DNA of 64,000 bases. It comes from Bacteriovoracia bacterium (GTDB lineage: Bacteria; Bdellovibrionota; Bacteriovoracia; Bacteriovoracales; Bacteriovoracaceae). The DNA lies in contig JAUIIL010000001.1 in NCBI GenBank assembly GCA_030431635.1, forward strand, positions 124,001 to 188,000, written 5' to 3'. Shown piece after piece: positions 43,970 through 51,014 of this stretch. Positions within the stretch are counted from its first letter, which is position 1; each line of letters opens with the position of its first letter. A program made the position numbers and the translations under genes. Below the pieces are notes generated by a model. That model saw only the letters and a program-made list of their open reading frames with translations, did no database searches and was not told the origin of the DNA.

Positions 43970-44934
43970 TGCTCTCACGTGAAAAAGAAGCGTACTTAAA
44001 TGAATTTAAAGGAAATTTATATGAGTATTTAGTGGCCAATTTCCTGGCTTCTCAATGCGATACAACTGAATGGTTTCTTTCTTCTCTTGGACCGCATTTT
44101 CAAAAACAATTAATTGATTATGAATTAATGTTAAGAAAATACTCACCAAATTTAATTCAAGATTTACCTGTAATGGCGGGATCTCTTGCAGATGAAATCC
44201 TCAAAGTTGTTGGGGCACAGAAATATAAAGTTCATTTGATTGGGAAAATAACAACGGCCAAAAGTAATAATCAATGGGCCGAAGCCGATATTGTTTTAGA
44301 ATCAAAAAAAATGGTTCCTATAAGCATCAAGCTTTCTAAAGAGAACTCCTTTGTTAATACAAAGAGTGCTGGGATAAGAAGCTTTCTTAAAACCTATTTT
44401 CAAGAGGACAAACTTCAGGAAGATTTTAATAAGTTTATTGATTATCACTTTGATACAATGGCCTTAAAAGTACATGAAGTGATGAATATTGATTATCATT
44501 CTGATTTTTCTGGGTGGATAGCAGCTGGTTTTAGTGAATTACCAGGGGGACAGCCTCCAGAAGTGAGTGAAGTTCTTCATGACTATTACCATACTCTTGC
44601 CAAAGAACTTTTTCGCCTAATGGAGCTTATTTCTATTAAGAACAAACACTATTTCTCAAATCAACTTCTTCCACTTATTGGGTATAGCGAAAACTCGATA
44701 CTTCAAGCCATTACCTATTATAAAAGTTCTCAAAAGAACTCCCCATCATTTTACCACTTATTAAAAGAGCAATCTCCGCAAATGGATGACGTTTCTCTTA
44801 TTTCTCCTCGAGAAGGAGTTGGCAATTTTGAAATAAAGCTAAAAGACTTAATATTACAAATTAGAATAAAACCAATGAATAAGTTTACAACTGCAGCTTA
44901 TAAAATTAACTGCTCTGTGAAGTTTTCTCTTTAG
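43969..44934 (+). CDS. Putative PD-(D/E)XK-like protein coupled to gsk
   Basis: A 321-residue cytoplasmic protein. Residues 1-130 show features of the restriction-endonuclease-like fold: an opening helix FKGNLYEYLVANFLASQ with a conserved Glu, then WAEADIVLESKKMVPISIKLSKENSF, in which Asp 107 and Lys near 121 could form the D...xK part of a PD-(D/E)XK site, though the usual acidic residue before xK is Ser here. This is an inference by pattern only. The C-terminal half is helical with no recognised motif. The ATG overlaps the gsk stop, so the two are translated together; the 3' end overlaps the convergent gene by TTAG. Confidence 0.5.
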   Translation: MLSREKEAYLNEFKGNLYEYLVANFLASQCDTTEWFLSSLGPHFQKQLIDYELMLRKYSPNLIQDLPVMAGSLADEILKVVGAQKYKVHLIGKITTAKSNNQWAEADIVLESKKMVPISIKLSKENSFVNTKSAGIRSFLKTYFQEDKLQEDFNKFIDYHFDTMALKVHEVMNIDYHSDFSGWIAAGFSELPGGQPPEVSEVLHDYYHTLAKELFRLMELISIKNKHYFSNQLLPLIGYSENSILQAITYYKSSQKNSPSFYHLLKEQSPQMDDVSLISPREGVGNFEIKLKDLILQIRIKPMNKFTTAAYKINCSVKFSL

Positions 44935-45542
44935 GCCACTTTTTTTTCGTCAATTATTTGCCATATGCTCTTGGGAGTATTGTTGGCTTCATGCCATCTT
45001 TTTTTATAAAGTCTATTCTCTGAAAGGATAAACTCTCCACTGTCATTTTGCTGTAGTTTTTGAGTAAAAAGATCTTCCCATATTTCTTCTTGAAGAGAGG
45101 TAATAAAAATACTTTTTTGATTTTTGATAAACTCGTGTACGAGAGCATCTTTTAGAACTTCTAGATTACTAAGACTTAAATTCTCTTCGGGAGATTCAAG
45201 TAATAAATAGGGAGACTGACTGATAATAGCCCTACACAAGGAGGCGATTTTTTTTTCTTCAGAGTTTAATTGGTGAATAAAACGCGAGAGAGGATAAATC
45301 CTTTTAATTAATTTTCTTAAAAAGTCGTTATTAGATTGATTCAAGTTTTCAAGCCCATTATCTGTAAGGATGTTATTTTCAACAGTAACGCTTTGGTGAA
45401 AAGTACAATCATGAGATGAGTAAGAAAACTGAGTGATATAAGAGGGATTTTGAGTTTTAAGAAAGGAGATACACTTCCTGAGTGAATTACTCTTGTAAGC
45501 CCCTTTATTTTCGTGAAAAAGATAGATTTGCTTCTTCGTCAT
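44931..45542 (-). CDS. ABC-ATPase-like protein lacking Walker A
   Basis: A 203-residue protein whose C-terminal half resembles the second half of an ABC transporter ATPase: RFIHQLNSEEKKIASLCRAIISQSPYLLLESPEENLSLSNLEVLKDAL matches the order signature loop, Walker B, D-loop, and KSIFITSLQEEIWEDLF the H-loop region. The signature is degraded (LNSEEKK instead of LSGGE), Walker B has Glu-Ser instead of Asp-Glu, and no Walker A (GxxGxGK) exists in the N-terminal half. It is probably a non-catalytic remnant or regulatory relative. It overlaps the convergent nuclease-like gene by 4 bases. Confidence 0.5.
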   Translation of the reverse strand: MTKKQIYLFHENKGAYKSNSLRKCISFLKTQNPSYITQFSYSSHDCTFHQSVTVENNILTDNGLENLNQSNNDFLRKLIKRIYPLSRFIHQLNSEEKKIASLCRAIISQSPYLLLESPEENLSLSNLEVLKDALVHEFIKNQKSIFITSLQEEIWEDLFTQKLQQNDSGEFILSENRLYKKRWHEANNTPKSIWQIIDEKKVA

Positions 45543-45646
45543 GAAACTCTATCGAATTGGTGAAAGAGAACTGTGAGTTAAATAGGGGTAAAGGAAAAAA
45601 CTTCTCCATCATTCTGTGAAGAGATATAATGAAGGTGGAGATATCA

Positions 45647-46936
45647 ATGAATCAAGTAACACAAAATCCACCTGAACAAATAGATACAAGTGAAATAGCT
45701 CATTACCCCAACCACAAAATAAGAGTGCTGGTGGGCATGACAGGATCGATTGACTCCCTGGTCGCTGCTTTTCTCCTTAAAAAACAAGGATTCCAAGTCT
45801 ATGCTCTAGCTCTTGTCACTTGGGATAAAAAAAATCCTGCTCGCTCTTTTGTTAAACCCCCAAACTGTTTTGTTGAGAACTTGGATGAACTTAAAGAAAT
45901 TTGTGAGAGTGCTGATATCGCTTTTTATGCGACAGATATTAAAAGTCGATTTGATTATGAAGTTTTAGAGAGCACAGTAGGAAATAAACTGACTGGAATT
46001 GCTAATATAAGTTGTTTTAATTGCACAAAGTTAAGGTTTCAAGTTTTATTTGAAAAAATGAAAAAACTTAAATGCCATTTTATGGCAACAGGACATTTTG
46101 CGAAGACTTATAAAAATCATAAAACGAATGAATTTTTTGCTCACTCGGCCAATGATAAGGACTTTGATCAATCAACTTTTATAGCTGGTCTTCCTCAAGA
46201 AATCTTAAGAAAAACGCTCTTTCCTTTATCTGAACTTAAAAAAGATGAAGTGAAAAAAATAGCACAAACTTATAAACTGGATAGAAAGAATCAAAACGAT
46301 CACAAAACAATGTGCTTTGATCATGACTCTCAATTTCCAACTTTTATCAAGACCAGAGTGCCAGAACCCCTACGAGAGCCAGGAAATGTTCATGAAATAG
46401 GAACAGAAAAATATATTGCCGAACAAGACGGTGTTTTTAACTACCATATAGGGCAAACAGAAATTAGAAGTAAGGATAAACTTATTGATAAACAACAGGG
46501 GTTTGAAGTCGTTAGCTTTGATTACAAAGAAAAAATTGTCTATGTAGGTTCAAATGAGAAAAATCATTATCTAGGTGCTCAAGTTGTACAAACGATATTT
46601 TCCTCTGAAATCGATCGAACAAAACCAGTAAAAGTTTATTTTAAGGTCAACACCAATGAGCAGTACTATGAGTGCGTTCTTTTTTATAAAAATAATAATA
46701 CTTTGTATGTTGAGTTTACACAGCCTTACTACAGGTTGGCCGAGAGTGATAAAATTGTTTTTTATGATAGAGCAAATAAAAGTGCAAAAATATTAGGCTT
46801 TGGATTTATTGCAACTCGAGGAGAGTACAAAAAAATCAATCGAACTAAAGCTTATGATAAAGAGAAAGACGATCCTTTCTCCTCACCAGAAGAGAAAAAG
46901 GCCAAGGCCAAGAAAGAAGTTGAGTTTGGTTTTTAA
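45647..46936 (+). CDS. MnmA-like protein with altered PP-loop (second MnmA paralogue)
   Basis: A 429-residue relative of tRNA 2-thiouridylase MnmA, longer than the canonical copy at 49572. The PP-loop SGGVDSS is changed to TGSIDSL (residues ~32-38), but the adenylation-domain order is kept: VGMTGSIDSLVAAFLLKKQGFQVYALAL, NISCFNCTKLRFQVLFEKM with Cys near 123/126, FMATGHFAK, DQSTFIAGLPQEILRKTLFPL and KTMCFDHDSQF with Cys near 223. The GQRKGLG motif of MnmA is replaced by GQTEIRS. ATG 45647 has GGTGGAG 6 bases upstream; ATG 45629 is alternative. The C-terminus has an extra charged tail. It may thiolate a different substrate or be inactive. Confidence 0.8.
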   Translation: MNQVTQNPPEQIDTSEIAHYPNHKIRVLVGMTGSIDSLVAAFLLKKQGFQVYALALVTWDKKNPARSFVKPPNCFVENLDELKEICESADIAFYATDIKSRFDYEVLESTVGNKLTGIANISCFNCTKLRFQVLFEKMKKLKCHFMATGHFAKTYKNHKTNEFFAHSANDKDFDQSTFIAGLPQEILRKTLFPLSELKKDEVKKIAQTYKLDRKNQNDHKTMCFDHDSQFPTFIKTRVPEPLREPGNVHEIGTEKYIAEQDGVFNYHIGQTEIRSKDKLIDKQQGFEVVSFDYKEKIVYVGSNEKNHYLGAQVVQTIFSSEIDRTKPVKVYFKVNTNEQYYECVLFYKNNNTLYVEFTQPYYRLAESDKIVFYDRANKSAKILGFGFIATRGEYKKINRTKAYDKEKDDPFSSPEEKKAKAKKEVEFGF

Positions 46937-47004
46937 ATGGGTCTTAATACCGAGTAATAATTACAAAAAAGAGAGTAAGTAGTAGTTGAATTTATGCGTT
47001 GTGC

Positions 47005-47010
47005 TATAAT
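47005..47010 (+). promoter_or_regulatory. TATAAT box just before ATG (leaderless candidate)
   Basis: TATAAT is followed by TCACGA and then the ATG at 47017. There is no ribosome-binding site in between. TTGAAT at 46986 is too close (13-base spacer) for an ideal -35, so the promoter call is tentative. Confidence 0.4.
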
Positions 47011-47016
47011 TCACGA

Positions 47017-48318
47017 ATGCGCTCTCTATTGTATTTAGTCTTATTTTCTTTAATGATTTCAGTATCTTACTCTTCTCTTGGTAAGTTGAGACACCTTGTG
47101 GGTAAAAAGTTAGGCTGTTGGAAAGACTTTTATACTTTGGCCAAATACAAACCAGAGAAATTTGAAGAAGTCCGCAAACTCTCTGAAGAGCTTTTGGTTG
47201 ATTCTCCTTTAAAAACTCAAGAAAAACTAGAGATTCTTGAAAAGTTTGAGCGTGGTCTTGATGTCTGGAGCACTATAGCTTCCGCTCCTCAGATATCATC
47301 AATAACAAATAATTACCACTATCTTGAAGCCTTGGGTGATGGGTTCATTGAAAAACTCACCTCACTAGTGGATGAGATGTATAGCAAGAATTTAATGGCG
47401 ATAGAAACTCATCAACATAAAGCAGAGTTACTAGATAGGGCCCTCATGAGTTTCCATCAAATAAGCCAGGCCAGATGGAACCTTGTTCTTTACAAGGAGC
47501 AAAGTAGAATCCTTGATAAGGTCAATTTTTTATCTTCTTACGATAATCTCTCACAAAGAGAAGTCAATTTTAACGGCTTAAGAGGCGAGGTGAGGGCCAA
47601 TCAAAATTATACAGAAGCTAACTTTCAAACTTATAAGAGTGAACTTAGAGAAAGGATTGATGAAGTCAAGGTTTTGAGCTTTCGCCAAGACGATGATTTC
47701 ATTTGGGCACAGGAATACTTAGAAGATATTGGCTCTTTTCTTTTCTTTGCGCTGAAAAATTACCCAGGTGAACTACTCTCGGAAATCCCTGAAGTGATTA
47801 AAATGCTTCATCTGACGATGGGGAAACTCCTCGCTTTAGAAGGAGGACATCTTCCATTAGAGCAAACTCTTCTGCACTTTGATGAACTACTCATAAAAAT
47901 GCTTCATTTGGAATTAGGCTCTACTGCTGATGAATTTTTGAAAAAAGAAACCTTATCTATAGAGGCAGGGCTTTTGGAAGCTATTTCAAAATATGCATTA
48001 CGCAAGTATAAAATTTTTGAGACGACTGGACATGAGATTGATAAGTTAGAAAGTATTATCAGGAGAAATTCAGCTGAGGGAATGAATCCATTAACAGAGA
48101 AGTCAGCCAAAAGACTCAGAGAGATGAAAAGTTTTCTTAATTCAGATAGAGAATCATTTCAAAAAAGAGGTCAAGAGTTATTTTATATGCTTGAACTTAC
48201 TCATGACTCAGAAATTGTTCAGGCCGTCGATGATTTTGAATTTTCTGAGAGAGTAAAAAAATACCAACAAGAAAATGAGCAGAAACAAAAAACTCAAGAG
48301 GAGTCAGGTGAAAAGTAG
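47017..48318 (+). CDS. Exported helical protein of unknown function
   Basis: A protein of about 433 residues with signal peptide SLLYLVLFSLMISVSYS. ATG 47017 is chosen because upstream codons (MCYNSR) precede the hydrophobic core poorly and the TATAAT box lies just before it. The mature protein is nearly all helical, starts with a single Cys (LGCWKDF) and contains long charged stretches (QKYQQENEQKQKTQEESGEK at the end). The following gene encodes a protein of similar size, a single early Cys-Trp/Trp-Cys (DIWCLVKF) and helical body, so they are probably paralogues and form an operon with mnmA. Confidence 0.65.
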   Translation: MRSLLYLVLFSLMISVSYSSLGKLRHLVGKKLGCWKDFYTLAKYKPEKFEEVRKLSEELLVDSPLKTQEKLEILEKFERGLDVWSTIASAPQISSITNNYHYLEALGDGFIEKLTSLVDEMYSKNLMAIETHQHKAELLDRALMSFHQISQARWNLVLYKEQSRILDKVNFLSSYDNLSQREVNFNGLRGEVRANQNYTEANFQTYKSELRERIDEVKVLSFRQDDDFIWAQEYLEDIGSFLFFALKNYPGELLSEIPEVIKMLHLTMGKLLALEGGHLPLEQTLLHFDELLIKMLHLELGSTADEFLKKETLSIEAGLLEAISKYALRKYKIFETTGHEIDKLESIIRRNSAEGMNPLTEKSAKRLREMKSFLNSDRESFQKRGQELFYMLELTHDSEIVQAVDDFEFSERVKKYQQENEQKQKTQEESGEK

Positions 48319-49571: not shown

Positions 49572-50678
49572 ATGGGAATGAAAGAGAAAGCTAAAATTAT
49601 TGTTGGAATGTCTGGTGGTGTTGATTCCTCAGTTGCGGCCCTTCTGTTAAAAGAGCAAGGGCATGAAGTCATTGGCCTTTTCATGAAAAACTGGGAAGAT
49701 GATGAGCATTGCCCTGCTGAGAAGGACTATCAAGATGTTGCTAGTATTTGCCAAAAATTAGGCATTTCATATTACACTGTTAATTTTTCACAAGAATACT
49801 GGGAAAACGTTTTCAAAGATTTTTTAGAAGATTATGAGAAAGGATTAACTCCTAACCCAGATATTTTATGTAATAGTGAAATCAAATTTAAAGTTTTCTT
49901 CGAAAAGGCCATGGCCCTTGGAGCTGATTATTTGGCCACAGGACATTATTGCCAAACAAATGATGAAGGGCTTCTGCTTAAAGGAGCAGATCCCAATAAA
50001 GATCAAAGCTACTTCCTCCATGCAGTGGATAGAGAGGTTCTTAAAAAAGTATTGTTCCCAATCGGTCATCTTGAAAAGTCTCAAGTCCGTCAACTGGCAC
50101 TAGAGAACGATCTTATTACTCATAATAAAAAAGATAGTACAGGTATCTGCTTTATCGGAGAGAGAAAATTTAGGGAGTTTCTGTCTCAGTATATTAAAAA
50201 ATCTCAAGGAAATTTTGAGCTTTTAAATGGAGAAGTTGTCGGGAAACATCAAGGACTTCCTTTCTATACCATTGGACAGAGAAAAGGGTTAGGACTTGGT
50301 GGACCAGGTGAGCCTTGGTATGTTGTTGGTAAGGACTTAAGAAAAAATATTGTTCAAGTAGCAAGGGGAAGAGTCCATGAAGCTTTGTTCACTGAAGAAC
50401 TCTACACAACAAAGATTCATTGGATAAGAAAACCAAATCAACTACCAATAAGCTTGAAGGCCAAGATCCGCTACCGTCAAAAAGATCAAGACTGCGTTTT
50501 GGAAGAAGTTGAGGGAGCTTTTAAAGTAAGCTTTGATAAGCCTCAAAGAGCAGCGGCCCCTGGGCAGTTTATCGTTTTTTATGAGGGGAATGAGTGTCTT
50601 GGTGGTGGTGTTATTGAAAGAGTTGGACCTAATTACTATCAAATGAAAAAAGAATTACCAGAGTCTTTTATCGTTTAA
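49572..50678 (+). CDS. mnmA: tRNA-specific 2-thiouridylase MnmA
   Basis: A 368-residue enzyme that installs sulfur at U34 of tRNA-Lys, -Glu and -Gln. Hallmarks: the PP-loop IVGMSGGVDSSVAALLL near residues 9-22, NPDILCNSEIKF with the catalytic Cys near 100, ATGHYCQ, DQSYFLHAV, DSTGICFIGERKFREFL with the second Cys near 193, and YTIGQRKGLGLGG followed by the C-terminal beta-barrel with RYRQKDQDC and AAAPGQFIVFY. ATG 49572 follows the previous stop by one base; an in-frame ATG at 49578 is also possible. The 3' end overlaps a convergent gene by 24 bases. A degenerate paralogue lies 4 kb upstream. Confidence 0.96.
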   Translation: MGMKEKAKIIVGMSGGVDSSVAALLLKEQGHEVIGLFMKNWEDDEHCPAEKDYQDVASICQKLGISYYTVNFSQEYWENVFKDFLEDYEKGLTPNPDILCNSEIKFKVFFEKAMALGADYLATGHYCQTNDEGLLLKGADPNKDQSYFLHAVDREVLKKVLFPIGHLEKSQVRQLALENDLITHNKKDSTGICFIGERKFREFLSQYIKKSQGNFELLNGEVVGKHQGLPFYTIGQRKGLGLGGPGEPWYVVGKDLRKNIVQVARGRVHEALFTEELYTTKIHWIRKPNQLPISLKAKIRYRQKDQDCVLEEVEGAFKVSFDKPQRAAAPGQFIVFYEGNECLGGGVIERVGPNYYQMKKELPESFIV

Positions 50679-51014
50679 GTCGAGAGTGTTATTTTTTTTC
50701 TTTTTCTCTTCAAATTTAAGGCAATCCTCTCCCGAGGCCTGCTTTACTATAATAGATGGAAAATTTTTGGATTTAATTCCATAGGCCTTACAACCTTTAG
50801 GTGAACTCATGTCCCATGTGACGTGATAGAATTTGCATTGTAAGCACTTTGCTTTGTTCATAAGAGTTATTCTAGCATAAATTTCAATGTCTAAAGATTG
50901 AGCAAGTGACAGGCAATTTATGTCAATAATAGAGCATGATAGCCTCATCCCATTGAAATCAGGCATATAAGTAGTCTTTTTCATCAGGGATTCAAGGAGA
51001 TAGGTTGGCATCAT
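50655..51014 (-). CDS. Small Cys-rich protein (CxxC type), start uncertain
   Basis: The conserved part is the C-terminal ~68 residues: MNKAKCLQCKFYHVTWDMSSPKGCKAYGIKSKNFPSIIV and ASGEDCLKFEEKKKK, with four Cys (C-x2-C, then C, then C) that probably bind a metal. Similar short proteins occur in Deltaproteobacteria-like genomes. ATG 50861 would give only this domain; the longer reading adds 51 residues that include a plausible extended domain (MKKTTYMPDFNGMRLSCSIID) and two extra Cys. No ribosome site decides the matter. It is read opposite to mnmA and overlaps its end. Confidence 0.6.
   Translation of the reverse strand: MMPTYLLESLMKKTTYMPDFNGMRLSCSIIDINCLSLAQSLDIEIYARITLMNKAKCLQCKFYHVTWDMSSPKGCKAYGIKSKNFPSIIVKQASGEDCLKFEEKKKKNNTLDLNDKRLW

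Follow-up and report, generated by a model that had tools for sequence, protein, structure and literature searches.

What does a second MnmA-type protein with an eroded ATP loop do in a bacterium that also encodes an intact MnmA? This question is raised by a locus in the window, by which we mean the whole 64,000-nucleotide stretch of Bacteriovoracia DNA analysed here. A preliminary description had reported two MnmA-type genes in it, and both were confirmed, at 45629-46936 and 49572-50678. We use PAR as a working name for the MnmA-type paralogue protein encoded at 45629-46936 on the plus strand. Its open reading frame starts with ATG at 45629 and contains no internal stop; position 45647, originally given as the start, is an in-frame alternative ATG. 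The canonical mnmA gene lies 2.6 kb downstream and its product shares 26% identity with PAR. The 3.3-Mb genome holds just these two MnmA-type genes. The features of the locus are as follows.

44931-45542, minus strand: conserved divergent neighbour of PAR with an ABC-ATPase-like fold and without recognisable Walker A (AlphaFold2 model and Foldseek)
45629-46936, plus strand: PAR, degenerate C-type MnmA paralogue, 435 amino acids (open reading frame, profile and PDB matches, AlphaFold2 model)
45740-45763, plus strand: degenerate PP-loop of PAR, TGSIDSLV (residues 38-45), which is SGGxDS in MnmA (alignment)
46013-46024, plus strand: CFNC, that is C129xxC132, cysteines 1 and 2 of the CxxC-C (Fe-S type) triad (alignment)
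46085-46099, plus strand: retained ATGHF block (residues 153-157)
46166-46174, plus strand: retained DQS block (residues 180-182)
46313-46315, plus strand: C229, third cysteine of the triad (alignment)
46451-46471, plus strand: GQTEIRS (residues 275-281) in place of the MnmA signature GQRKGLG (alignment)
46835-46933, plus strand: C-terminal tail of PAR, of low confidence in the model, ending in VEFGF
46999-48318, plus strand: intervening gene 1, putative secreted protein, 439 amino acids
48275-49570, plus strand: intervening gene 2, putative secreted protein, 431 amino acids, overlapping gene 1 and ending 1 nt before mnmA
49572-50678, plus strand: canonical D-type mnmA with SGGVDSS, NPDILCN, GICF and GQRKGLG (open reading frame and profile matches)

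The homology of PAR to MnmA is far beyond chance. Profile searches returned PF03054 with an E-value of 2.5e-39 (135.5 bits) and PF20258 with 21.7 bits, both over the cut-off, and PF20259 with 17.3 bits, below the cut-off of 27; an MnmA of the PDB matched the sequence with an E-value of 2e-29. The scores against the curated NCBIfam MnmA equivalogs stayed below their cut-offs (NF001138, 208.9 versus 284 bits; TIGR00420, 179.3 versus 236.95 bits). An AlphaFold2 model built on 29 sequences reached a pLDDT of 85.6 and a pTM of 0.84, with a mean pLDDT of 67 for the block around C229. Its best solved matches are MnmA structures, namely 2hma (Z 35.2, rmsd 2.7, 349 residues) and 2det (Z 34.0, rmsd 2.9, 349 residues), and the match spans residues 26-402 with all three domains. 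The structural comparison that had been proposed as a check hence returned a full-length MnmA fold. Because the model matches solved MnmA structures, we conclude that PAR has kept the entire MnmA body, which is followed by the low-confidence tail.

The motifs quoted in the preliminary description were correct: PAR carries TGSIDSL and GQTEIRS, compared to SGGVDSS and GQRKGLG in the canonical copy, and has kept ATGHF, DQS and the cysteine segments. Its statement that the PP-loop was lost has to be softened. The SGGxDS loop of the MnmA superfamily reads TGSIDS in the window copy, with changes of S to T, of the second G to S and of the last S/T to L, and GQRKGLG is gone, but since G39, D42 and S43 remain, the loop is degenerate rather than erased. 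These leftover residues might still bind ATP.

MnmA proteins are split into a D-type (DxxC-C; D99, C102 and C199 in E. coli) and a C-type (CxxC-C) (PMC8584467, PMC11784392), and the C-type MnmA of Thermus thermophilus carries a [4Fe-4S] cluster (Shigi et al. 2020, cited after PMC8584467; PMC11784392). The downstream MnmA of the window is D-type (NPDILCN, GICF). PAR has the cysteine pattern of the ancient C-type (NISCFNC, MCF), i.e. a CxxC and a third cysteine in the catalytic domain (C129, C132 and C229), and it reads NISCFNC at the position of the D-type NPDxxCN. Ordinary MnmAs of other phyla, which make up most of the lower-ranked loci from the taxonomy scan, served as outgroups for phylogenetic analysis. 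In a tree of 86 sequences the PARs formed one clade (SH-aLRT 100) and the D-types a separate clade (100), and a second tree of 103 sequences again recovered PAR as a single clade outside the D-types. Forcing PAR and the D-types of the family together was rejected (p-AU 0.03); the best tree placed PAR with the C-types of other Bdellovibrionota, with a support of only 78. Since the PAR clade lies outside the D-type clade, PAR and mnmA are not recent tandem duplicates. Judging by these trees, PAR derives separately from the D-type MnmA of the same cluster. The phylogeny in Bdellovibrionota that had been called for thereby gives no support to the origin implied earlier, in which PAR would have arisen by rewriting a copy of the canonical gene next to it.

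We then considered the distribution of PAR in a phylum sample of 291 genomes, 97 of them from the window's own family. About 83 of these 97 genomes showed at least two MnmA-type matches; most other genomes have one. PAR orthologues occur in these predatory bacteria across the Bacteriovoracales; the named records include Halobacteriovorax marinus as well as several Bacteriovorax. Wherever both genes were in view, in 40 loci, PAR lies upstream of the D-type mnmA on the same strand, with a gap of at most 77 nt in nine of the 40 and of zero in one. The gene between them varies or is missing among relatives, so that PAR and mnmA form the constant pair. Usually, relatives carry at this place a putative M28-like secreted peptidase (e.g. 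at 10094-11329 of L036), as read from the sequences, and the two putative secreted proteins that occupy the interval in the window are unrelated to it. We infer that the PAR-mnmA cluster is co-transcribed; scanning it for promoters and terminators yielded numbers close to those expected by chance. Genes sharing one cluster need not act together. Moreover, E. coli MnmA works without a PAR-type partner and the genomes of genus g10 of the same family (G067, G093 and G144) contain a D-type mnmA and no PAR match, which indicates that MnmA does not generally depend on PAR; these genomes can be viewed as natural deletions.

The divergent neighbour of PAR (44931-45542, minus strand) is conserved across the family and has no Pfam match. 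Its AlphaFold2 model (pLDDT 83.8) resembles ABC ATPases (best Foldseek E-value 2.7e-8, TM about 0.6), and on the basis of this model it may be a second degenerate ATPase adjoining the degenerate MnmA. Downstream of mnmA, a small convergent gene (50655-51014, minus strand), likewise without a Pfam match, is conserved in most relatives.

Motifs were counted in 61 PARs with a complete N-terminus and in 122 other MnmAs of the set; like the charge and omega values given below, these counts are not independent, since the sequences are related. A strict SGGxDS was detected in 7 of the 61 PARs and [ST]GGxDS in 10, compared to SGGxDS in 116 of the 122 other MnmAs. All three cysteines of the triad are present in 37 PARs, none in 22 and one in two. 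On the tree, the PP-loop pattern requires seven changes and the triad pattern two, and as only two are needed, the near all-or-none distribution of the cysteines is weak evidence of co-selection. In the window's own PAR branch, every member has the triad and none an intact PP-loop. The earlier view that the chemistry residues were kept while the ATP loop was lost is thus valid for this branch. Retention of these residues holds for 37 of the 61 orthologues in all, about 60%, but not for the 22 without the triad or the two with a single cysteine. Universal cysteine retention was ruled out by the orthologue alignment, and because of these same losses, PAR must have some conserved function besides cysteine chemistry.

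Forty further MnmA sequences were added for comparison across the phylum. Single-copy MnmAs sampled from many other families were C-type with an intact SGGVDS in 28 of 28 cases. Outside the window's family, 14 genomes had two copies, 13 with a D-type and one with another C-type. Their second C-type copies have lost SGGxDS in 8 of 14 cases and kept the three cysteines in 14 of 14, and the C-type and the other MnmA gene are not neighbours. Second C-types with a broken PP-loop and a full CxxC-C were seen at L174, L175, L137, L140, L141, L146, L149 and L158, all from other Bdellovibrionota families. The decoupling of cysteines and ATP loop noticed in the window therefore extends to these families. 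It fits a scenario in which the presence of another MnmA may release the C-type from adenylation, with the cysteines still in use. The relation between PP-loop loss and D-type presence is a pattern only, as with 3-4 independent transitions a phylogenetic test is without power.

MnmA recognises the tRNA anticodon with its C-terminal domain (PMC8584467). The PAR core had a higher pI than the D-type MnmA of the same genome in 34 of 40 pairs (paired test p 1.4e-6, relatedness ignored), with values of 8.8 and 6.4, respectively, in the window, and the excess basicity was clearest in the charge of the C-terminal domain. As it is this domain that recognises the anticodon and that of PAR is more basic, tRNA binding by PAR is plausible. 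The tails of the PARs comprise about 30 residues and are mostly acidic, and a terminal Phe is found in 50 of 61 PARs versus 0 of 47 D-type neighbours. The tail of the window PAR is net positive, yet it ends in Phe as well. It may be guessed that this terminal Phe tail is a docking motif. With regard to sulfur supply, the genome contains SufB/D-type genes and several members of the aminotransferase-V family, one of which adjoins the suf genes. The TusA and DsrC/TusE families gave no match in the genome, which indicates that the E. coli Tus relay is absent.

Could PAR be a pseudogene in decay, or a duplicate that is being lost? The fast divergence (27-45% identity of the orthologues to the window copy), the lost catalytic motifs and the absence of PAR from a few relatives would be in line with this, and the orthologue of L126 (3669-5156, minus strand) is split by a stop codon, whereas the frame is uninterrupted in another member of its genus. 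L126 is the sole such case, however, and the frames of all other examined orthologues are open. Pairwise omega was about 0.04-0.11 for the closest PAR orthologue pairs and 0.03-0.08 for the D-type gene where measured, values that are rough because dS is near saturation. At the level of sequence evolution they clearly indicate purifying selection on PAR, including the cysteine-less lineages. The position of PAR and its terminal Phe are conserved too. Open frames and omega thus rule out a frameshift or pseudogene reading, and we consider decay highly improbable. The preliminary description had favoured maintenance over decay, in agreement with these data. It had also named a stop in relatives or cysteine loss across orthologues as marks of a pseudogene; both exist (one stop, 22 of 61 orthologues without cysteines), but the conclusion does not follow, as omega is low even where the cysteines are gone.

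A different reading is that PAR is an active Fe-S-dependent thiolase of U34 (or another position) with a tolerant PP-loop, which would act on other tRNAs or under low oxygen while the D-type enzyme works in air. The window copy and 36 other orthologues have the full triad, G39, D42 and S43 as well as ATGH and DQ are kept and SUF genes are present for cluster assembly. Against this, SGGxDS has been lost in most PARs with seven changes on the tree, although none of the 28 single-copy MnmAs sampled in the phylum has lost it; GQRKGLG is gone, and the 22 orthologues lacking all three cysteines are still conserved. We regard this activity as unlikely. PAR may also have left thiolation, being an Fe-S or sulfide protein (a sensor or a Tus-replacing carrier) in the window lineage and a mere scaffold in the cysteine-less lineage. 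This appears doubtful: the cysteines are kept or lost nearly as a unit (37 all, 22 none, two one) and outlast the ATP loop, and the triad persists in all 14 second C-type copies outside the family, but the pattern within PAR needs just two tree changes, and the linkage to mnmA favours a role near thiolation. The missing TusA and DsrC/TusE matches would agree with a carrier, but a Tus substitute is not required, because the Bacillus subtilis desulfurase YrvO hands sulfur straight to MnmA (PMC11784392). A changed, acceptor-dependent sulfur reaction of PAR, as put forward in the preliminary description, is possible, although the reaction is putative.

Taken together, the eroded ATP loop of this second MnmA points to a partner in tRNA sulfur modification that is non-catalytic or repurposed. 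We see about even chances that PAR is a C-type MnmA that, as a pseudoenzyme or in a repurposed form, has become an accessory to the D-type MnmA and probably no longer adenylates. Once tRNA U34 thiolation had passed to a D-type MnmA, the C-type MnmA of the lineage would have been retained. Encoded in one gene cluster with the D-type enzyme, PAR would keep the three-domain MnmA fold with a more basic, tRNA-binding-type body, and it could assist MnmA by presenting tRNA in a heteromer, as is thought for Ctu2/Ncs2 with Ctu1/Ncs6. Alternatively, PARs that retain the cysteines, the window copy among them, may hold a [4Fe-4S] cluster or sulfide for MnmA; the PAR of the window lineage is possibly still cluster-binding. 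It may further be speculated, with low confidence, that Bacteriovoracales possess a two-component U34 thiolase, in which a catalytic D-type would be combined with an ATP-independent C-type that presents tRNA, donates Fe-S or sulfide in some lineages and replaces the Tus relay. If true, bacteria would have evolved a counterpart of Ctu1/Ctu2 independently. Both the need of MnmA for a [4Fe-4S] cluster and the sulfur route to MnmA are disputed (PMC11784392). The literature collection searched contained no paper on MnmA in Bacteriovorax. The genomes described here represent a natural experiment, in which a single genome encodes a C-type homologue next to a D-type MnmA and the ATP loop and the cluster cysteines of the former were lost separately in different lineages.

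Among known systems, PAR shares the three-domain fold and the CxxC...C pattern with the C-type MnmA of Thermus thermophilus and falls next to the C-types of the phylum with modest support. Unlike C-type MnmA, it has a degenerate PP-loop and GQRKGLG and an extra C-terminal tail, and 22 of 61 orthologues are without the triad; the NPC..CN context is altered, with one residue deleted after CxxC. With the D-type MnmA of E. coli, PAR has the fold and the ATGH and DQS blocks in common, and a D-type gene sits in the same cluster, whereas PAR lacks the Asp of NPDxxCN and an intact PP-loop, is not a member of the D-type clade and does not reach the NCBIfam cut-offs. Ctu2/Ncs2 of the eukaryotic cytosolic U34 thiolase belongs to another PP-loop subfamily (Ncs6/TtuA, not MnmA), but it, too, is a homologue that has diverged from the intact thiolase beside it and whose active-site motifs are impaired. 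Ctu2, the partner of Ctu1, has no cluster cysteines (PMC10067955). The window PAR retains all three and so differs from a Ctu2-like subunit in how it would work, a comparison that does not concern family; in addition, PAR is of a different MnmA type from its neighbour, and its putative pairing with MnmA is suggested by gene-cluster linkage. Trm6/Trm61 offers a precedent for a paralogous subunit pair (PMC6382703): in this m1A58 methyltransferase, Trm6 is thought to lack cofactor binding and to have kept RNA binding, similar to our reading of PAR, although fold and chemistry are unrelated and the likeness is an analogy only. If PAR assists MnmA, it would represent a bacterial case of the split into catalytic and non-catalytic subunits known from eukaryotic tRNA-modifying enzymes.
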